From Candidatus Rokuibacteriota bacterium (GTDB lineage Bacteria > Methylomirabilota > Methylomirabilia > Rokubacteriales > CSP1-6), in contig QHSO01000022.1 of NCBI GenBank assembly GCA_003220475.1, forward strand, positions 19,848 through 60,216: a DNA stretch of 40,369 nt, written 5' to 3'. Both the position numbers and the translations under genes were made by a program. The notes beneath the pieces were generated by a model. It saw nothing but the letters and a program-made list of their open reading frames with translations, had not been told where the DNA came from and did no database searches. The first letter of the stretch is position 1. Every line of letters starts with the position of its first letter. Positions 2,577 through 38,203 of this stretch are shown piece by piece.

Positions 2577-5216
2577 TCACTCACCACTCTGCTGCATGAG
2601 CTTGGCGACGAGACCGGTCCACCCCGTCTGATGACTGGCGCCGAGGCCGGCGCCGTCGTCGCCGTGGAAGTATTCGTAGAAAAGCAGCAGATCGCGCCAG
2701 TACGGGTCGCTCTGGAACTTCTCCGTGTCGCCGTGCACGGGCCGCCGGCCGTCGCGCCCGCGCAGAAAGAGCCGGACGAGCCCGCGCGACAGCTCCCCGG
2801 CGACGTCCCAGAGGTTGAGCCGCCGGTGCGAGCCGCTCGGACACTCGACCTTGAGGTCGTCGCCGTAGAAGTGATGGAACTTCTGCAGTGACTCGATGAG
2901 CAGGTAGTTCATCGGGAACCAGAGCGGGCCGCGCCAGTTGGAGTTGCCGCCGAAGAGCGCGGTCGTGGACTCGGCGGGCTCGTAGCCCACGCGATGCTCC
3001 ACGCCATCCACGGTCAGCACGTAGGGATGCGCGCGGTGGTAGCGCGACAGCGCGCGGATGCCGTGCGGCGATAGGAACTCGTCGCGATCGAGCATGTAGC
3101 GCAGCACGCGCGTGAGCTGCGCTCGATTGACGATCGAGAGCAGCCGGCGGACGCCGCCGCCGGCGACGGTCTGCGTGTCGAGGTTGGCGCGGAACTGCGG
3201 CCGGTTGTCGATGAACCACTGCAGGCGACGCATGAAGCCCGGCAGCCGATCGACGACGTCCGGCTCGAGCGTCTCCACCGCGAAGAGCGGAATGAGCCCG
3301 ACCATCGAGCGGACCTTCAGCTGGCGGACTTCGCGGTCGGTGTGCAGCACGTCATAGTAGAAGCCATCCGCCTCGTCCCACAGCGTGAGGCCCTCGCCGC
3401 CGAGGTCGTTCATGGCCCGGGCGATGTAGACGAAGTGCTCGAAGAACTTCGAGGCGATGTCCTCGTACGCCGGGTTCGACTGGGAGAGCTCCAGCGCGAT
3501 GGCGAGCATGTTGAGGCAGTACATCCCCATCCACGATGTGCCGTCCGACTGCTCGATGCGGCCGCCGGTGGGCAGCGGTGCCGAGCGGTCGAAGACGCCG
3601 ATGTTGTCGAGCCCGAGAAAGCCGCCCTCGAAGACGTTCTTGTCCTCGGTGTCCTTGCGGTTCACCCACCACGTGAAGTTCAGCAGCAGCTTCTGGAAGG
3701 CCTTCTCGAGAAAGTCGCGGTCGGCCACGCCGGTCACGCGGCGATCGATCTTGTAGACGCGCCAGACGGCCCACGCGTGCACCGGCGGATTGACGTCGCC
3801 GAAGGCCCACTCGTAGGCCGGGATCTGGCCGTTGGGGTGCATGTACCACTCGCGCAGGAAGAGGATCAGCTGTGACTTGGCGAAGTCCGGATCGATCGGC
3901 GCGAGCGCGATGGTGTGGAAGGCCAGGTCCCAGGCGGCATACCACGGGTACTCCCACTTGTCGGGCACCGAGAGCACGTCTTCGTTGTAGAGATGCGTCC
4001 AGCGCGCGTTGCGGCCGTGCAGGCGCTCGCGCGGGGGCGTGGGCTGGCCCGGATCGCCGGCGAGCCAGCGCCGGACGTCCAGGTGGTAGAACTGCTTGCT
4101 CCACAGGATCCCCGCGTACGCCTGCCGCGCCACCGCGCGCGCGTCGGCCGAGCATGTCGCCGGCACCACGGTGGCGTAGAACTCGTCGGCCTCGCGGCGC
4201 CGCCGCTCGAAGAGCGCGTCGAAGGCGCGGCCGAACGGGTCAGCGTCCGGCGCGACGTCGCTGAGCCGCAGGCGCAGCGTGCGCGTCTCGCCCGCGCGCA
4301 ATGACCATCGGTGATGCGCCGCCGCCTTCGTTCCGACCGCCGCGGGGTTCACCGCGTCGGCCCGGCCGTGGACCACGTAGTCGTGGAACGCGTCCTTTAC
4401 ATAGAGCGTCGTGTTGGCGACACCCCAGAGGCGGCGCGCGTTCGTCTCGTTCTCGGTGAAGAGCAGATCGGCGGCGCCCTCGCCAACGAGCCAGCGCCGG
4501 CCGAGCGTCGCGTGCTCGGCTTCGATCACGATCCCGCCCGCGCCCGGCGCCGTCGCGCGCAGTCGCGGCCGCGGCGAGCCCGCCTCCCACGTCCACGTGT
4601 TTCGAAACCACAGCGTCGGCAGCACGTGCACGTCGGCCGGCTCGGGCCCGCGGTTGGTGACCGCGATGCGGATCAGCATCTCGTCGATGGCGGCCTTCGC
4701 GTACTCGACGACGACGTCGAAGTAGCGATCGTCGTCGAAGACGCCGGTGTCGAGCAGCTCGTATTCGCGCGCTCGCCGGTCCCGGCGCGCGGTCTCCTCG
4801 AGCAGCAGCGCGTAGGGAAACGCGCGCTGCGGATACTTGTAGAGGTACTTCATGTAGGCGTGGGTCGGCGTGTTGTCGAGGTAGAAGTAGTACTCCTTGA
4901 CGTCCTCGCCGTGATTGCCCTGCGTGCCCGTGAGACCGAAGAGGCGCTCCTTGAGGATCACGTCGCGGCCGTTCCAGAGGGCCAGCGCGAAGCAGAGTCG
5001 CTGGTGGTTGTCCGAGATGCCGGCCAGGCCGTCCTCGCCCCAGCGGTAGGCGCGCGAGCGGGCGTGATCGTGCGGGAAATATTCCCAGGCCGTGCCCCCG
5101 GGACTGTAATCTTCGCGTACGGTGCCCCACTGCCGCTCGGACAGGTACGGGCCCCAGCGCCGCCAGTGCGCAACCCGGCGGGTCGCTTCCGCGATGCGTC
5201 GATGCTCCTCGGTCAT
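2577..5216 (-). CDS. Large MGH1/GH63-like glycoside hydrolase (glucosidase)
   Basis: 879 aa; [37 protein letters not shown]..., [43 protein letters not shown]63/MGH1-like family features. Confidence 0.85.
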
Positions 5217-7135: not shown

Positions 7136-8872
7136 ATGAGGCTCCCCCGCATCTCCGACGTCCAGATGGATCTGCTGGCCGCGCGCCTGAGCGCGGCCGG
7201 CGTCGGCCGCCGCGATTTCCTGCGCGTGGCGGCCGGCCTCGCCACGCTCGGAGCGGCCGGCTTCAATGCGCGCCCGGTCTCAGCGGCACCCAAGCTCGCG
7301 GCGGGCGAGAAGCTCGCCCGCGAGCAGCATTTCCGGTACGGCGGAGGCGGCTGGTGGCAAAACGATCCATCCAGCCACGATTTCAACAAGGACCTGTATT
7401 GCAACGGCGTGCCCGCGCTCTGGGCGGGTCTCATGAAGTTCAACGCCGAGTTCCAGCCCGTGCCCTACGTGGCCGAGAAGGTCTCGTCCAACGCGGAGGG
7501 CTCGGTGTGGACGTTCAACATCCGCAAGGACTCCAAGTGGTCGGACGGCAGCCCCTGCACCGCGCGAGACTTCGAGTGGTCCTGGAAGCGCCAGATGGAC
7601 CCGGCCAGCAAGAACCCGTACTCGAGCTACTTCTACGACATCAAGGGCGCCGAGGCGTTCAACAAGAGCAAGGTGCCTGACGCCTCGCAGGTCGGTGTGC
7701 GGGCCAAGGACGAGTGGACGCTCGAGGTCACGCTCGAAGGGCCCCGCGGGTACTTCCCCGTGCTCTCGGCGTACCTCGCTGCCCTGCCAGCCCATCGCGC
7801 GGCGGTCGAAAAGTACGGTGACAAGTGGACGGAGGCCAGCAACATCGTCTGCAACGGGGCCTTCGTGCTCGAGGCGTGGGAGCACAACAAGGCCATGGTG
7901 TTGCGAAAGAACAAGCACTTCTTCGGCGCCAAGGACGTGACGCTGGAGAAAGTCACGATCCCCATCGTTCCCGTGCAGTCCGGGGCGCTTCCGTACGAGA
8001 ACAACGAACTCGACATGACCTCGCTCCAGACCGGCGACCTCAAGCGGCTCCGCGACGACCCGCGCTCGGGCAAGCAGGTCTTCCGCTATCCGTTCCCCGG
8101 GACCTGGTATCTCACTCCGCAGGTGACGAAGCCGCCGTTCGACAACGTCAAGGTGCGCCGCGCGGTGGCGCACGCCATCGACCGCGACAACGTCGTGCGC
8201 GTCGCGGACGGCTTCGCCGTTCCCGCGCACGCGATGATCCCGCCCGGGTTCCCGGGAGCGACCGACGACAAGAAGATCCGCGACATCCAGCGCTTCGATC
8301 CCAAGGCAGCGATGGCCGAGCTCAAAGGCACGCCGTTCGAGGGCGGGCGCAACTGGCCGAAGATCACGCTGACGATGCGGGAAGAGGGCTATGGGTCCAA
8401 GCCGCTCGCCGAAGCCGTGCAGTCGGTCTTGCTCGAGCACCTCAACATGAAGACGGAGCTCGAGGTGCTCGAACAGCGCGTGTTCCGCGCCGGTCTCTGG
8501 AAGAATGACTACCAGTTCGTGTGGATCCGCTGGTTCATGGACTATCCGGACCCGCACAACGAGTACTTCGACACCTTCTACGGCAAGAAGACCGAGGGCA
8601 AGCGGCAGGCGTGGGTGAACGACGCATTCGACAAGGAATTGGAGACGGGACGCGACACGCGCGACGCGAAGAAGCGGATGGCCAACTACGCGAAGGCCGA
8701 GGAGATCATGCAGACCGACGTCGGCTACATTCCCGTGGCGTGGGTCGCGCGGTGGGCCGCGACCAAGCCGCACGTGCGTGGGCTCGAGAAAAACAAGCTC
8801 GGCGAGAACGTGGTCGAGGGCAACATTTACTTCGACATGCTGCCGCACCTCTACATCATCGATCGCGCCTGA
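7136..8872 (+). CDS. ABC transporter substrate-binding protein (SBP_bac_5) with Tat-like signal
   Basis: GRRDFLRVAAGLATLGAAGF twin-arginine signal; SBP_bac_5 body (VWTFNIRKDSKWSDGSPCTARDFEWSWKR, VRRAVAHAIDRDNVV); SD GAGGAGG upstream. Confidence 0.92.
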   Translation: MRLPRISDVQMDLLAARLSAAGVGRRDFLRVAAGLATLGAAGFNARPVSAAPKLAAGEKLAREQHFRYGGGGWWQNDPSSHDFNKDLYCNGVPALWAGLMKFNAEFQPVPYVAEKVSSNAEGSVWTFNIRKDSKWSDGSPCTARDFEWSWKRQMDPASKNPYSSYFYDIKGAEAFNKSKVPDASQVGVRAKDEWTLEVTLEGPRGYFPVLSAYLAALPAHRAAVEKYGDKWTEASNIVCNGAFVLEAWEHNKAMVLRKNKHFFGAKDVTLEKVTIPIVPVQSGALPYENNELDMTSLQTGDLKRLRDDPRSGKQVFRYPFPGTWYLTPQVTKPPFDNVKVRRAVAHAIDRDNVVRVADGFAVPAHAMIPPGFPGATDDKKIRDIQRFDPKAAMAELKGTPFEGGRNWPKITLTMREEGYGSKPLAEAVQSVLLEHLNMKTELEVLEQRVFRAGLWKNDYQFVWIRWFMDYPDPHNEYFDTFYGKKTEGKRQAWVNDAFDKELETGRDTRDAKKRMANYAKAEEIMQTDVGYIPVAWVARWAATKPHVRGLEKNKLGENVVEGNIYFDMLPHLYIIDRA

Positions 8873-10538: not shown

Positions 10539-12717
10539 CTATGTAAGTGGGGGCCCCGAAATGGCTACGCCCCCTCGGACTCCCCGGCCAAACGCTCGCC
10601 AAATCGACTCTGGTGTCAGCGGCATATCGAGATGGCGGACCCCGAACGGCGAGAGGGCATCGACCACCGCGTTCACGACGGCCGGCGGCACGCCGATGTT
10701 GCCGGCCTCGCCGAGTCCCTTGGCCCCGAGCGGGTTGCGCTTCGTCGGGGAATGCATGTGGTGGATCTCGGCGTGCGGCACGTCGTCGGCGCGCGGCAGC
10801 GCGTAGTCCATCAGCGTGCCCGACAGCATGTGGCCCTCGGCGTCGAAGCGAACGGCCTCGAGCGCGATCTGGCCCCACGCCTGCGCGAGCGAGCCGTCGA
10901 GTTGACCATCGGCGAGCAGCGGGTTGACGATGGTGCCGGCGTCGTCGATCCACACGAGCCGCTCGAGCGTGAGCACGCCGGTCTCGCGCTCGATACGCAC
11001 GGCCGCCACGACCGCGCCACCGCTCCACACCTCGTGCTCCGCCGCCAGCACGTGCGAGGCCTCGAGCCCGGGCTCTTCGCCCGCCGGGAGCGGACCGTGC
11101 CAGGCCACTCGCGCGACGTCCGCCCAGCGCACGAAGCGATCCGGAACGCCGGCGATCGAGAAGCCGCCCGCGCCCAGCCGCACGTCGGCGGCGTGCGCCT
11201 CGAGCAGATGCGCGGCGAGCCGCCGCGCCTTCGCGACGACGGCGTCGGCCGCGTGAGCCAGCGCGCCGCCGCCGAGCGCGGTGCTGCGGCTGCCGAAGGT
11301 CCCGATGCCGGTCGGAATGACGTCGGTATCGCCGTGACGGACGTCGATCGCCTCGGGCTCGAGACCCAGGCGATCGGCCACGATCTGCGCGAACACGGTC
11401 TCGTGCCCCTGGCCGTGTGCGCTCGAGCCGGTGGCCGCGGTCGCGCGCCCGTTGGCCTCGATCCGCACGAGCCCGCGCTCCCAGCCGAGCGCCGAGGGCT
11501 CGACATAGACCGATAGCCCCACGCCCACGAGCTCGCCGCGGCGGCGTCGCTCGGCCTGCGCGCGACGCAGTTGCGCGTAGTCCGCACTCGCCATCACGCG
11601 CGCGAGCAGCCCGGGATAGTCACCGGAGTCGTAGCTCTCTCCGGTCGCGGTCGTGAACGGAAAGCGCTCGGGCGGCACGAGATTGCGACGTCGCAGCTCG
11701 GCGGGGTCCATCGCCAGCGCCCGCGCCGCCTCGTCGACGAGCCGCTCGATGAGGAAGGCCGCCTCGGGACGACCGGCGCCGCGGTAGGGGCCCACGGGCG
11801 GCGTGCTGGTGAACGCGCCGATGGCCTCGATGTCGACGTCGGTGATCGCATACGGGCCCGGCAGACAACGCACGTGATTGCGCGGCGTCCCCATCGCGGT
11901 GTAGCCGATGCTCGGCCCGAGCGGACACAGGATCCCACTTGAGCGGGCGTCCGAGTCGGCGTGCGAGCCACGGGATGAGCACCTCTTCACGATACGGCCC
12001 GCCCTTGACGCCGAATCCGCCGCCGACGTCGGGGGCGATGACGCGCACGCGCGCGGGCATCAGGCCGAGCAGTCGCGCGACCTCGTCGCGGATCCGGTGG
12101 GGGACCTGCGTCGAGGACCAGATCGTGAGCGCGTCGTCGGCCCAGCGCGCGGCGACGCCGCGCGGCTCCAGGGGCACGCCGGCCAGCCGCGCCTGGCGCA
12201 CCTCGACGGCCACCGTGCGGTGGGCGGCCGCGAACGCGCGATCGGTGTCGGCGGTTCGGATCGCATACGTGAAGCAACGATTGTCTTCGCGCCCGACGAT
12301 TGGCGGTGCCCCGGGCGCCAGCGCGGTGTCGGGCTCGGCAGCGCCTGGCAGCGCCGCCCACTCCGCGCGTACCAGTGCCGCCGCGTCGTGCGCGAGCACG
12401 GCCGACTCGGCCACCACCAGCGCCACCGGCGTGCCCTGACAGCGGACAACGTCACCGGCGACGAACACCATCTCCGGGACGACCATGCCCTCGATGACGC
12501 GCGCCATGCCGATCGGTGGAAACGCGTCGACGTCGGCGGCGGTGATGACCGCGATGACGCCCGGGGCCTTGCGCGCGGCCTCGACGTCGAGCTCGACGAG
12601 CCGCGCATGGGCGTGCGAACTGCGCACGAAGACGACGTGGGCGATGCCGTCGATCGACAGATCGTCGAGGAATCGGCCTTCGCCGCGCAGCAACGGCGCG
12701 TCCTCGCGACGGCGCAT
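10539..12717 (-). pseudogene. Xanthine dehydrogenase / CoxL-family molybdopterin-binding subunit, apparently internally deleted and frameshifted
   Basis: N-terminal half in ORF 11620..12717 (RRREDAPLLRGEGRFLDDL..., GGGFGVKGGPYREE...LGRPLKW); C-terminal half in ORF 10539..11990 (CLPGPYAITDV...PPVGPYRGAGRPEAAFLIERLVDEAA...LGAKGLGEAGNIGVPPAVVNAVVDAL). Frames change near 11930 and the region expected between RPLKW and LPGPY is short. Confidence 0.8.
10549..10564. repeat. Copy 1 of GGGGGCCCCGAAATGG at a convergent gene end
   Basis: Exact 16-nt match to copies at 21568 and 35917; lies between the stops of GGDEF (10529) and XDH body (inside its last codons). Confidence 0.85.
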
Positions 12718-12780
12718 GGCGCGACCGACGTGACTCAGGCGGCGAACCTCCTCGGCGGCGCGGGCGGCATGACGGTGTCC

Positions 12781-12794
12781 GGATTGTACAATCC
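12781..12794. promoter_or_regulatory. Perfect 14-bp palindrome GGATTGTACAATCC containing TACAAT on both strands, in a divergent intergenic region
   Basis: Read directly; TACAAT (12787-12792) lies 6 nt upstream of ATG 12799. Confidence 0.55.
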
Positions 12795-12798
12795 CGCC

Positions 12799-14139
12799 AT
12801 GTGCCGCCCTACCCTCGGTAGGACAAGCGCGTGGGGTGGCCTCGCCCTTGCCGCCGCCGTGCTGGCGACGGCGCCGAGCGACGTCGCGGCCCAGGTCTTC
12901 ATCTCGACCTCGCCGCGCCCGGACATCACCATCGGCCCGCTCTTCGTCGGGGCCACCGCGCCGGCGGAGCTGACCGCGCCCGTCAACGTCACGGTGACGT
13001 GGAATCTCGTCCAGCGTCGCGGCGGTCAGCCCTACGTCCGGACGCTCGCGCTGCTGTGGCCATCCGAGATCGCCGCGCCGACGGCGCCCGGCTCCGCCGA
13101 TCCGGTGCTCGTCAACTACGTCGAGTCGCGCGGCTTCAGCTCGACGGGGTCCGGACGGCTCCTCCTACGGGCGCGCAACCAGAGCCAGCTCGGCCTGCTG
13201 GCGCCCGGGGAGAATCTGACCGTGACGGCGTCGTACGTTTCGTTCGTGCGGCGCGACGCGCCGCCGCAGGCCGGCTCGGGCTCGCTCGTCTGGATTCCGC
13301 CCACGCCGCATCTCGGCGACTCGCGTTGGGTGCTGACTCTCCCCTTTCCCGTGCGCGGCATGATCGCCCCGAAGCCAGCGACGTGGCTCGAGGACGTCTT
13401 CTGGGGTCGGCGCAACGCGCTCGCGCTCTCGTGGGGCGACGTCGGCTCGATCGCCTTCTACCCGCTGTACCACGAGCACCGCGATCGAATCCTGCACCTC
13501 GCGCGCGAGTACTCGAGGCTGCTCGTCAACTTCCCCGATGCGGGCCACCTGCGCATCGAGGGCATCGAGCCGGTGGCCGCCGTGCGTGGCGGCAGCCGGC
13601 TGCGCGCCGGCACGGAGACCGTGTCGCTTCCGCTGAACACCGTCGACGCCGCCCCGCAGACGCTGAAGGTGCAGTACGCGTACTATCGCGGCATCTTCGC
13701 GTGGCGGCCGGTGCTCATCTCGCTCGGCCTGCTCGTCCTCGGCAATCTCACGGGTCTCTTGATGGTGAGCGGCCGTCTCTCGACGCTGGTGCGCACCCGC
13801 CTGCGCGTCGCGCGCGGCGCGCCGGAGGACGATGATGCGACGACGCCGATGCCGGATCGGCTGGCCGACATCCGGCCCGGCGAGTCGACGTACGACGACG
13901 TCGTGCGGTGCTGTGGCCTGCCGGAGGAAGAGCACCATCGCGTCGCCTCGGGGTCCAGGCGCACGCTGGTCTATCGTGAGACGCGGCGCCAGCCCGAGCG
14001 CGGCCTGCGCGTGGGCTGGCTCACCACCGTGCGGCACTGGGACATCGAGCGCTACGAAGCGGAGATCGAGCTCGACGGCGAGCGGGTCCAGGACGTCGTC
14101 ATGCACGTGCGCCGCGCGCGCACGAGCTCGCCGGATTGA
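12799..14139 (+). CDS. Signal-peptide-bearing membrane protein with C-terminal SmpA/BamE-like domain
   Basis: MCRPTLGRTSAWGGLALAAAVLATAPSDVAAQ signal; TM PVLISLGLLVLGNLTGLLMV; C-term RLADIRPGESTYDDVVRCCGLPEEEHHRVASGSRRTLVYRETR. Confidence 0.65.
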   Translation: MCRPTLGRTSAWGGLALAAAVLATAPSDVAAQVFISTSPRPDITIGPLFVGATAPAELTAPVNVTVTWNLVQRRGGQPYVRTLALLWPSEIAAPTAPGSADPVLVNYVESRGFSSTGSGRLLLRARNQSQLGLLAPGENLTVTASYVSFVRRDAPPQAGSGSLVWIPPTPHLGDSRWVLTLPFPVRGMIAPKPATWLEDVFWGRRNALALSWGDVGSIAFYPLYHEHRDRILHLAREYSRLLVNFPDAGHLRIEGIEPVAAVRGGSRLRAGTETVSLPLNTVDAAPQTLKVQYAYYRGIFAWRPVLISLGLLVLGNLTGLLMVSGRLSTLVRTRLRVARGAPEDDDATTPMPDRLADIRPGESTYDDVVRCCGLPEEEHHRVASGSRRTLVYRETRRQPERGLRVGWLTTVRHWDIERYEAEIELDGERVQDVVMHVRRARTSSPD

Positions 14140-21564: not shown

Positions 21565-21567
21565 CCT

Positions 21568-21583
21568 GGGGGCCCCGAAATGG
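21568..21583. repeat. Copy 2 of GGGGGCCCCGAAATGG at a convergent gene end
   Basis: Exact 16-nt match; between DAHP synthase stop (21564) and NYN gene stop (21604). Confidence 0.85.
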
Positions 21584-21603
21584 GCTAACGCTCCTCGATC
21601 CTC

Positions 21604-34505: not shown

Positions 34506-35912
34506 ATGGAAACCGATCTGTGGCGCTGGGACGCCGTCGAGCTGGCTGCCGCCATCCGCACACGCCGGATTTCGAGTCGCGAGGCCACGCGCGCGGTGCT
34601 CGACCGGCTCGCCGCCGTCAATCCCGCGCTGAACGCGGTGACCGTGCTGCTCGCCGACCAGGCGCTGGCGGCCGCCGATCGCGCCGACGCCGCCGTCCGT
34701 CGTGGCGAGGCGCTCGGCCCTCTGCACGGCGTGCCCGTCACGATCAAAGAAAATGTCGACCAGGAGGGCGCCGCGACCGCCAACGGGGTCCCCGCGTTCA
34801 AGGACCTCATGGCGGCGACCGACAGCCCGCCGGTCGCCAATTGGAAGCGCGCGGGCGCCGTCATCGTCGGTCGCACCAACACACCGGCGTTCAGCCTGCG
34901 CTGGGACACCGACAACGAGCTGCGCGGGCGGACCTTCAACCCGTGGAGCCGCCGTCACACGCCCGGCGGCAGCAGCGGTGGCGCCGCGGCGGCGCTCGCG
35001 GTCGGTATCGCGCCGCTCGCGCACGGCAACGATCTCGGCGGCTCGATCCGCTATCCCGCCTACTGCTGCGGCGTGGCCGGCATCCGTCCCACGCTCGGCC
35101 GCGTCCCGTCCTACAACCAGACGGCGGCCGACGAACGTCCGCCGGGCACGCAGCTGATGTCCGTGCAAGGGCCGCTGGCCCGGCGCGTGCGCGACGTGCG
35201 GTTGGGGCTGGCGGCAATGAGCGCGCGCGATCCGCGCGATCCGTGGTGGGCGCCGGCGCCGCTGCTCGGCGAGCCGGCGGCGCGGCCGGTCCGCGTCGCG
35301 CTGACGATCGACCCGGCCAAGGGCGGCGTGCGCGCCGACGTTGCCGCCGCCGTGCGTGAGGCCGGCAATGCGCTCGCGAACGCCGGCTACGCCGTCGAGG
35401 AGATCGAGCCGCCCGACGTCGAGGGCGTGGCCGCCACGTGGGCCACGATCTGCATCAACGAGATGCGCCACGTCACACAGCCGTGGATCCGCAAGTACGG
35501 CGGCGCGGCCATCAATCGTTCACTCGATCTGACGCTGGCCGCGGTGCCCGACGTCGGCCTAGATGGCTACATGCAAGCGCTCGCGCTACGCGCCAAGCAC
35601 ATCCGCGACTGGACGCTGTTCATGGAGCGCTACCCGCTGGTGGTCGGGCCCGTGTCCACCGAGCCGCCGTTCGAGATCGGCTTCGACACGACGAGCGCCG
35701 AGCGCCACGCCGAAGTGACGCGCGCGCAGCGCCTGCTCGTCGCCGTGAACCTGCTCGGCTTTCCCGCGGTCTCCGTCCCGACCGGCGTCGCCGGCGGGCT
35801 GCCGCTGGGCGTGCAGGTCATCGGCGCGCGCTATCGTGAGGACCTCTGCCTGGACGCCGCCGAGGCGATCGAGGCTCAGCGCCCGCTGCCGACACCGATC
35901 GAGCCTGTGTGA
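34506..35912 (+). CDS. Amidase (amidase signature family)
   Basis: GPLHGVPVTIKENVDQEGAATANG...TPGGSSGGAAAALAVGIAPLAHGNDLGGSIRYPAYCCGVAGIRPTLGRVPS; Ser-Ser-Lys triad positions present. Confidence 0.92.
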   Translation: METDLWRWDAVELAAAIRTRRISSREATRAVLDRLAAVNPALNAVTVLLADQALAAADRADAAVRRGEALGPLHGVPVTIKENVDQEGAATANGVPAFKDLMAATDSPPVANWKRAGAVIVGRTNTPAFSLRWDTDNELRGRTFNPWSRRHTPGGSSGGAAAALAVGIAPLAHGNDLGGSIRYPAYCCGVAGIRPTLGRVPSYNQTAADERPPGTQLMSVQGPLARRVRDVRLGLAAMSARDPRDPWWAPAPLLGEPAARPVRVALTIDPAKGGVRADVAAAVREAGNALANAGYAVEEIEPPDVEGVAATWATICINEMRHVTQPWIRKYGGAAINRSLDLTLAAVPDVGLDGYMQALALRAKHIRDWTLFMERYPLVVGPVSTEPPFEIGFDTTSAERHAEVTRAQRLLVAVNLLGFPAVSVPTGVAGGLPLGVQVIGARYREDLCLDAAEAIEAQRPLPTPIEPV

Positions 35913-35913
35913 G

Positions 35914-35940
35914 ATGGGGGGCCCCGAAATGGCCCCCCAT
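35914..35940. terminator. Copy 3 of the word (35917..35932) inside a perfect 10-bp stem hairpin; candidate bidirectional terminator
   Basis: ATGGGGGGCC-CCGAAAT-GGCCCCCCAT between amidase stop (35912) and molybdopterin oxidoreductase stop (35948). Confidence 0.65.
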
Positions 35941-35947
35941 ACCCCCC

Positions 35948-38203
35948 TTACGCTCGTCGCGCCCCGAGTGAATCGTGGCGCTCCTCGGTCTCGCTGGCTG
36001 TCTCAATATCGACGAAGCAGGTGTTGAAGGTCGCGGCGGCCGCGGGAGACGCGCGGTCGGCCGTCAGCATGTTCGAGCAGCCGCGCGTGTCGGCGCCCGT
36101 TTCGTCGAGCGCGAACCACACGCCCTCCTTGATGGACACGACGCCGGGCGCGATGCGGTCGGTCACGCGCGCGCGCGTCACGGTGGCGCCGCGCCCATTG
36201 AACACGCGCACGCGCTGGCCGGCGGTGACCCGGCGCACCGCGGCGTCGGCAGGGTGGATCCAGACCTCGTCGTGGTCGGCGCGCATGAGAATGGGCTGGT
36301 TGTCGTGGATCGAGTGGGTGCGCGCGCGCGACTTCGGGCTGACGAGCCGGAGCGGATAGAGGCCTTCCGCCTCGTCGGGAATCCACGTCGGAATCGGCGG
36401 AATCGCGCCGAGCCCGTACGGATCGGGATTGGTGGCGATGGCCATCGAGTAGATCTCGATCTTTCCCGACGGCGTGGTGAAGGGATGGCGCACGGGATCG
36501 CGGATCTCCCGGGCAAACGCCACCGCGTCGTCGGGCACCGGCAGACGCGCGAGCCCGCGCTCGCGGAAGGTGTCGAAGTCGTCGATCGTGTCGCGCGTGA
36601 GCTCGCGCAGCCACTGCTCTTCCGTGCGATCGGCGTAGTCGTCGATACCCAGGCGCCGCGCGAGCTCGGCGCAGATGTCGAAGTCGTTGCGGCACTCGCC
36701 GACCGGCGGAATCGCCTGGCGCATGAAGATCACGTAATGGCCGGCGCCGGCCCACGGCGTGTGCACGTCGTTGCGCTCCCAGAACGTCGTCGCGGGCAGC
36801 ACGATGTCGGCGTAGCGCGCGGTCGGCGTGATGAAGTGGTCGTGCACGACCATGAACTCCACGCCTGACACGGCAGCCACGGTCTTCGCGACGTTCGGGA
36901 GCTGATTGAACAGGTCGCCGGCCGCCGAGTAGATCAGCTTGATGTCGGCGGGGTAGCCGCCGGCCCGGCCGCGCTCGAGCAGGTCGGCCAGCATCGGCGT
37001 GGCCACGCGCGCGGCGGCCGGGTTGGCCCCGACGGGCAGGCTCTTGATGCCGCCGCGCCCCGTGGCGCCGTTGCTGACGCCGGAATTGCCGCCGGGCGTG
37101 CCGACGCTGCCGGTCATCGCCGCCAGCGCATAGGCGGCGCGGTGGAACTGCTCGCCGTGGGCCGTGCGGCCCGGAGCATAGCCGCACTGCAGCGCCGCCG
37201 GCTTCATCGTCGCGTACTCGATCGCCAGTCGGCGGATCGTCTCCGCGGGCACGCCGGTGATGGCGGCCGCCCACTCGGGCGTCTTGCGCACGCCGTCGGC
37301 GAGACCGAACACGTACGAGCGGTACGAAGCGCCTGCGGGCGCGCCGGGCGGCAGATGCGCCTCGTCGAAGCCGAGCACGTGCCGGTCGAGGAACGCCTGG
37401 TCGTGCAGTCCTTCGCTGGCGATGACATACGCCATCGCGATGAGCGCGGCGGCGTCGGTGGACGGGCGGATGAAGACGTGCTCGTCGGCGAGCTCGTAGC
37501 TCGTGCGCGTGACGCGCGGATCCACGCACACGATGCGTGCGCCGTGCTTCTTCGCGAGCTTGAGGTACTGCAGCGTTCCCGTTCCGAACGTCCCATCGCC
37601 TGGGCTCCAGCCCCACATGATGATGAGCCGCGAGTTGACGTAGTCGCTCGGCTCGCGCCCGGCGCTCTTGTAGTCGGCCTTGGCGCCGTAGGTCATCTTG
37701 ACCCCGAAGACCTCGGCCTCCGCCGAGACGTTCGACCAGAGCTCGGTGCAGCCGCCGAGCTTGTGCAGCAAGCGCTGCACGACGGCCCGACCGTTGTGCA
37801 GCATCGAGAGGCTGCCGGTGCGCGAGCAGTCCAGGATCGCCGCCGGGCCGTAGGTATCGCGCACGCGCCGCAGCTGGCTCGCCACCTCGTCGAGCGCCTC
37901 GTCCCACGTGATGCGCTCGAACTGGCCGGCGCCACGCGGTCCCGTGCGACGCAATGGATGGCGAAGGCGGTCGGGATGGTTGACCCGCTCGGCCTGGCCG
38001 AATCCGCGCACACACGCGTGGAGCGGTGGGACTTCGGGCGTCCACTTGCGAGGATCCGTGCTGATCTTGACGATGCGCCCGTCACGGACGTGGGCGTTGA
38101 CGACGCAGCGGCCGCCGCAGTTGTGACCGCAGGTGCTGGTGACGACACTCTCGCCGGGCGCGGCGTGCACGCGCGGCGCCTCGTAGAGAATGCGACTGGC
38201 CAT
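35948..38203 (-). CDS. Molybdopterin oxidoreductase, DMSO-reductase superfamily
   Basis: VVTSTCGHNCGGRCVVNAHVRDGRIVKISTDPRK...ACVRGFGQAERVNHPDRLRHPLRRTGPRG...FERITWDEALDEVASQL...MWGWSPGD. Confidence 0.88.
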   Translation of the reverse strand: MASRILYEAPRVHAAPGESVVTSTCGHNCGGRCVVNAHVRDGRIVKISTDPRKWTPEVPPLHACVRGFGQAERVNHPDRLRHPLRRTGPRGAGQFERITWDEALDEVASQLRRVRDTYGPAAILDCSRTGSLSMLHNGRAVVQRLLHKLGGCTELWSNVSAEAEVFGVKMTYGAKADYKSAGREPSDYVNSRLIIMWGWSPGDGTFGTGTLQYLKLAKKHGARIVCVDPRVTRTSYELADEHVFIRPSTDAAALIAMAYVIASEGLHDQAFLDRHVLGFDEAHLPPGAPAGASYRSYVFGLADGVRKTPEWAAAITGVPAETIRRLAIEYATMKPAALQCGYAPGRTAHGEQFHRAAYALAAMTGSVGTPGGNSGVSNGATGRGGIKSLPVGANPAAARVATPMLADLLERGRAGGYPADIKLIYSAAGDLFNQLPNVAKTVAAVSGVEFMVVHDHFITPTARYADIVLPATTFWERNDVHTPWAGAGHYVIFMRQAIPPVGECRNDFDICAELARRLGIDDYADRTEEQWLRELTRDTIDDFDTFRERGLARLPVPDDAVAFAREIRDPVRHPFTTPSGKIEIYSMAIATNPDPYGLGAIPPIPTWIPDEAEGLYPLRLVSPKSRARTHSIHDNQPILMRADHDEVWIHPADAAVRRVTAGQRVRVFNGRGATVTRARVTDRIAPGVVSIKEGVWFALDETGADTRGCSNMLTADRASPAAAATFNTCFVDIETASETEERHDSLGARRA

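Follow-up and report, generated by a model that had tools for sequence, protein, structure and literature searches.

Among the repeat families described so far, the GTAG REPs and BIMEs are high-copy short palindromes found mostly between convergent or tandem genes, where they lie <20 bp from 3' ends, sometimes provide a stop codon and are patchily distributed across species (PMC3733652, PMC2817692). No CGTC REPs are reported in Rokubacteria in PMC3733652. Most of what is known about REP-like repeats comes from cultured phyla, and RAYTs are often invoked to account for them. MITEs, ERIC and RU sequences are short, dispersed and hairpin-forming, and are able to donate C-terminal codons to neighbouring genes. 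Within a 40,369-nucleotide stretch of DNA from an uncultured member of the Candidatus Rokuibacteriota (the whole of which is referred to here as the window), a recurrent 16-nt word is likely to mark a REP-like, non-autonomous family of short palindromic repeats that is probably mobile. This family looks undescribed, no account of such a repeat in Rokubacteria having been found in the literature searched, and appears to lack the transposase on which such repeats usually depend.

The exact word is present at 10549-10564, 21568-21583 and 35917-35932, all on the + strand, and no further matches were found in the window when <=3 mismatches were allowed. Each copy is located at a tail-to-tail junction (10529/10539, 21564/21604 and 35912/35948 in our own gene calls), as the first-pass annotation had observed. 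The source genome (G000, a draft MAG of 4.8 Mb in 329 contigs, 92% complete) contains 57 exact copies (32 on the forward and 25 on the reverse strand), and in 55 of these the word continues into GGGGGCCCCGAAATGGCCCCC; the two exceptions are window copies 1 and 2. Rather than being a functional unit, the word represents the 5' arm and loop of one hairpin (hairpin 1) in a longer element, the hairpins of which have been lost from copies 1 and 2. The features of the window are as follows:

35912-35988, + strand: complete element, copy 3, the sole intact copy in the window (covariance model R1, 84.8 bits, E 1.5e-13; RNA fold z -4.0)
35914-35940, + strand: copy 3 hairpin 1, ATGGGGGGCC, loop CCGAAAT, GGCCCCCCAT (sequence and fold; a perfect 10-bp stem)
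35942-35947, + strand: copy 3 second C-run (C6), the length of which co-varies with the hairpin-1 runs
35959-35981, + strand: copy 3 hairpin 2, GCGCCCCGAGTGAATCGTGGCGC (family covariation)
35984-35987, + strand: copy 3 conserved right-end motif CTCG (right-end base table)
10548-10598, + strand: copy 1, deletion relic of a three-hairpin variant (comparison with L027/L073)
21567-21600, + strand: copy 2, deletion relic in which the hairpin-1 5' arm and loop are followed by AACGCTC joined directly to CTCGAT (sequence)
35948-35988, - strand: element-derived C-terminus of a molybdopterin oxidoreductase, EERHDSLGARRA followed by TAA at 35948-35950 (translation)
10539-10565, - strand: relic-encoded C-terminus, AISGPPLT and stop, of a MoCoBD (xanthine-dehydrogenase-like) gene (homolog alignment)

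In copy 1 the 5' arm and loop of hairpin 1 are joined to the 3' half of a middle hairpin (CTACGCCCCCTCGGACTCCCCGGCC) and a AACGCTCG linker, with ~26 nt missing between the two loops relative to the three-hairpin variant. Copy 2 lacks the 3' arm of hairpin 1 and has lost hairpin 2 from between the CTCG repeats, a join of the kind that would be expected if a palindrome flanked by short repeats had been deleted. The RNA folds of these relics are no better than those of shuffled sequences (z -0.02 for copy 1 and 0.60 for copy 2). At both copy 1 and copy 3 the minus-strand gene finishes inside the element, and the alignments of the best homologs break off ~10-20 residues sooner: 14 homologs of the molybdopterin oxidoreductase align only up to residues 733-742 of 751, and the best homologs of the MoCoBD protein only up to residues 432-441 of 451. 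Translation bears out the earlier report that copy 1 encodes the terminal AISGPPLT, and annotators should be aware that such repeat-derived C-termini get read as protein. The MoCoBD gene (window 10539-13337, - strand) itself seems to be broken, with 506 codons compared with open frames of ~770-890 in relatives; antisense homology runs on as far as 13337 and changes frame near 11930, which suggests either a pseudogene or an assembly indel.

When copies are lined up, they define an asymmetric element of about 77 nt with two hairpins, in the order NNATG6CC-CCGAAAT-GGC6CAT, second C-run, CGCTCG, hairpin 2 and CTCGAT. Hairpin 1 has an N-N-A-T-G5/6-CC stem and a CCGAAAT loop; a short spacer precedes the second C-run, and A(A/G)CGCTCG lies between this run and hairpin 2. 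Base tables place the left end at NNATG-G5 and the right end at CTCGATNNC, the right-end motif being CTCGAT in most copies. Hairpin 1 shows almost no variation in its inner stem, even among model-found copies, unlike hairpin 2, which is very variable in sequence but keeps its pairing, with changes on both sides in 8 of its 9 pairs across the family. When 95 copies that the model had found in this genome were aligned, 94.7% of cells were paired; this alignment was fitted to the covariance model and is hence biased towards the structure. Hairpin 2 is supported by compensatory changes: 116 compensatory cells were observed compared with 29.8 in shuffles, none of 500 shuffles reached the observed value, and sliding the partner destroyed the signal. 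Orthologous copies from two species gave 4 usable pairs, too few for compensatory change to be assessed between them.

The lengths of the three runs (G-run, first C-run and second C-run) change together among 211 copies parsed from several genomes (6/6/6 in 96 copies and 5/5/5 in 44), and the correlation between the G-run and the second C-run (0.42) was reached in none of 2000 permutations. These linked lengths could be explained by two co-inherited subfamilies and are not proof of alternative pairing. A longer variant contains a third hairpin between hairpins 1 and 2 (L027, L035 and L073), tandem units are found ~75-90 nt apart (L059, L079, L095 and L291), and subfamilies with other hairpin-1 loops (CCTCGAAGGG, CTCCGAGCG and ACTATCGAAG) have the same architecture. 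Contigs of one public MAG (JACPDG) show nested palindrome growth, whereby a GGTGCGCGGACGCACC hairpin is inserted into hairpin 2, sometimes twice (L060, L087, L088, L102 and L128). A hairpin similar in layout but with a different apex (GGGGGGTGTAGGGGGGAGCGGCGGTCGCTCCCCCC) lies at a gene 3' end in L328 and L351, on the right-hand side of the matched gene, and is possibly a sister family.

Well over a hundred copies of the element per genome are present in some uncultured Rokubacteria. Model R1 identified at least 139 copies in G000 (150 candidates were scored) and matched 45 of the family's 57 genomes, with the copy counts in three genera to be read as "at least". The 21-nt hairpin-1 core was found in none of 38 searched genomes from other families of the phylum, the same 21-nt form retrieved only Candidatus Rokuibacteriota records among the listed matches in public genomes, and it had no occurrence in viral_contigs, which were searched for viral carriage.

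Junctions compared within the genus show the element present/absent in 9/6 cases in one direction and 13/12 in the other, counts that come from a regular expression that misses some copies and that mostly leave gain versus loss unpolarised. For example, three tandem units are present at L291, where the sister locus L183 has 4 nt between the matching flanks. The junction corresponding to copy 1 holds a complete element in G001 and, in G002, a hairpin with a different loop; the copy-2 junction is occupied by an element of the CCTCGAAGGG subfamily, in the same orientation in G002 and the opposite orientation in G001; and at the copy-3 junction the element is absent in nearly all relatives. These differences suggest that the same gene ends have been repeatedly hit or rewritten, and mobility would account for an element that is present or absent, or exchanged for another subfamily or the opposite orientation, at a single junction in sister species. 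Element sites common to different species also exist (e.g. L290/L187), and the sharing of many sites by several species suggests that movement is infrequent.

The suggestion in the first-pass annotation that a small repetitive element occupies convergent ends is supported, and the copies are non-randomly placed with respect to gene orientation (convergent versus divergent, Fisher p 1e-9 in G000 and 2e-11 in sister G002). Exclusive location at convergent ends holds within the window but not genome-wide: in the sampled regions of G000, hairpin 1 is present in 20 of 52 convergent (38%), 34 of 246 tandem (14%) and 1 of 92 divergent gaps (1%) of >=40 nt, with 6 copies inside predicted genes, and in G002 the corresponding values are 33/61 (54%), 27/187 (14%) and 3/74 (4%). 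These statistics cover ~0.93 Mb (G000) and 0.80 Mb (G002) around elements sampled by word or model, which inflates the absolute gap fractions and not the contrast between gap types, and genes were called by our own codon-usage caller with uncurated starts. Four other convergent junctions in the window do lack the word, as had been pointed out, but their genes overlap or are separated by gaps of <= ~31 nt, too short for a whole element. Where a gene points at hairpin 1, the G-run mostly begins 0-8 nt past the stop codon (mode 6), and where a gene points away, hairpin 1 is upstream and the start codon is mostly 7-11 nt off. A similar 3'-end habit is known for published REPs (PMC3733652). With respect to tandem genes the two orientations are about equally frequent (32 versus 29). 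At L019:1418-1571 the element begins directly after a tRNA gene. On the minus strand of L232 (~3012 on that strand) a solitary hairpin 1 is followed by AGGAGGTCGTATG and apparently sits in the 5' leader of a gene.

No RAYT (Y1_Tnp, PF01797) was found in G000 (92% complete, as above), G001 or G002, the three genomes of the genus, and a link to RAYT/Y1 is rejected for this genus. Elsewhere Y1/RAYT genes are found mainly in element-poor genomes, with the exception of G012, which has a partial match and many elements. We also considered a long, autonomous copy in which hairpins 1 and 2 would flank a gene, but the far matches listed look like chance in a distance scan of hairpin-1-only sites in which the regular expressions overlap and many "solo" rows do carry hairpin 2; neither a mobilising gene nor an autonomous copy was found in these searches. 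Long flanking direct repeats are present at ~6 of 179 single copies compared with ~1 expected, some of these being tandem remnants, and general target duplication is unsupported. Direct repeats of 21-26 nt flank the elements at L238, L244 and L164 and are possible target duplications. Hairpin 1 is also found within another repeat, starting GCTGTTGCAAGCTC..AAAAGAGATG, at L150:7000-7120, L161 (minus, ~4893-5010 on that strand) and L185 (minus, ~7850-8040 on that strand); in L161 it is inside a predicted gene and is followed by an inverted GCAACAGC. The sequence suggests that the GCTGTTGCAAGCTC repeat may be a MITE with TGTTGC ends enclosing hairpin 1.

A REP-like repeat of this kind would be moved in trans by a candidate enzyme acting on the folded single strand, and would settle, or survive, immediately behind stop codons, growing by tandem duplication and decaying by loss of palindromes. 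Placed at gene 3' ends, the element would be included in transcripts from one strand or from both, and the GC-rich hairpins would most likely influence mRNA 3' ends in a passive way, as a block to 3'-5' exonucleases and a brake on polymerase.

The 3'-end bias could instead reflect selection for a host function, the element being an old, host-maintained bidirectional non-canonical terminator, or a 3'-end processing or stabilising element, that has been selected at gene ends. This is possible but doubtful. It would fit the strong enrichment at convergent gaps and near absence from divergent gaps, the pairing of hairpin 2 retained despite sequence change, and the copy directly behind a tRNA gene in L019. 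U-tract terminators are found at 1.9% of element-free tandem ends compared with 1.9% in shuffled sequence, and at 3.3% compared with 1.5% of element-free convergent ends; the lack of an excess at tandem ends implies that another 3'-end signal may be needed. However, the element is missing from ~60% of the G000 sample's convergent gaps of >=40 nt, two window copies have decayed while their junctions persist, and the placement of hairpin 1 shortly before the start codon of genes that point away is not what this explanation would lead us to expect. Most copies also lack a U-tract, and a canonical bidirectional terminator is not supported. The bidirectional terminator proposed in the first-pass annotation is not borne out, as U-tracts rarely follow the hairpins and a stem with a T-rich tail is present at 7-8% of element-bearing gene ends; some three-hairpin variants (L027 and L029) have one.

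Mispairs in hairpin 2, read on the element's strand, are more often A-C (46) than G-T (13), an asymmetry seen in all three main gene contexts. It follows the strand of the element and not the transcribed strand, which counts against a host 3'-end element, and selection for RNA pairing in the transcript of the flanking gene is rejected because the bias stays the same whichever way the gene points. On the opposite strand the A-C mispairs would be read as G-T wobbles, a hint that it is the folded bottom strand that is important, although non-independence of the copies has to be allowed for and an equal asymmetry could arise from mutation bias. It is conceivable, but unlikely, that these are strand-specific, 3'-end-targeted mobile palindromes moved by a non-RAYT enzyme with the bottom, G-rich strand as substrate. 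This substrate would be G6-TNT-G6-loop-C6, in which the C-run could pair with either G-run, and subfamilies with different apical loops would repeatedly hit the same post-stop sites.

Binding sites for gyrase- and IHF-like proteins are one role of E. coli BIMEs, and positive supercoils meet between convergent genes, where the elements lie. A role of the element as DNA target of a nucleoid or topology protein of this type, with the invariant hairpin-1 core as putative recognition sequence, is consistent with the near invariance of this stem compared with hairpin 2, but the subfamilies with other loops in the same architecture make it improbable. Chance recurrence in GC-rich DNA, for which 0.6 matches would be expected in the window at <=3 mismatches, is refuted by the 57 exact copies compared with none of the reversed word and by the single ~80-nt context common to complete copies, and can be dismissed. 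A REP-like mobile repeat with passive effects on mRNA 3' ends is favoured because of the Y1/RAYT, U-tract and mispair results.

Compared with known systems, the element resembles intrinsic (Rho-independent) terminators in having a GC-rich hairpin right after the stop codon, but it is mostly without a U-tract, and nothing in such terminators corresponds to its second hairpin or second C-run. A search of ten element loci against Rfam 15 (E<=1) gave only tRNA and one sub-threshold BjrC68 match (23.7 versus 39 bits). Like MITEs, ERIC and RU, it is short, dispersed and hairpin-forming and donates C-terminal codons to adjoining genes; unlike MITEs it has no terminal inverted repeats, since its ends are non-complementary and hairpins 1 and 2 are unrelated, and target duplications do not seem to be general. 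The CGTC REPs have the same location habit and likewise lack a dedicated transposase (PMC3733652), but the terminal CGTC is absent from the Rokubacterial element, which is bipartite. With the GTAG REPs and BIMEs it shares high copy number, extragenic location and proximity to 3' ends. In contrast to these repeats of 20-40 bp, which are accompanied by a RAYT, it comprises ~77 nt with two dissimilar hairpins that keep the same order and orientation, lacks the palindrome-end GTAG in both end base tables, and is found in a genus without a Y1/RAYT gene. An abundant, structured, stop-adjacent family from an uncultured phylum, in a genus without RAYTs, therefore provides a test of whether 3'-end palindromes need RAYTs.
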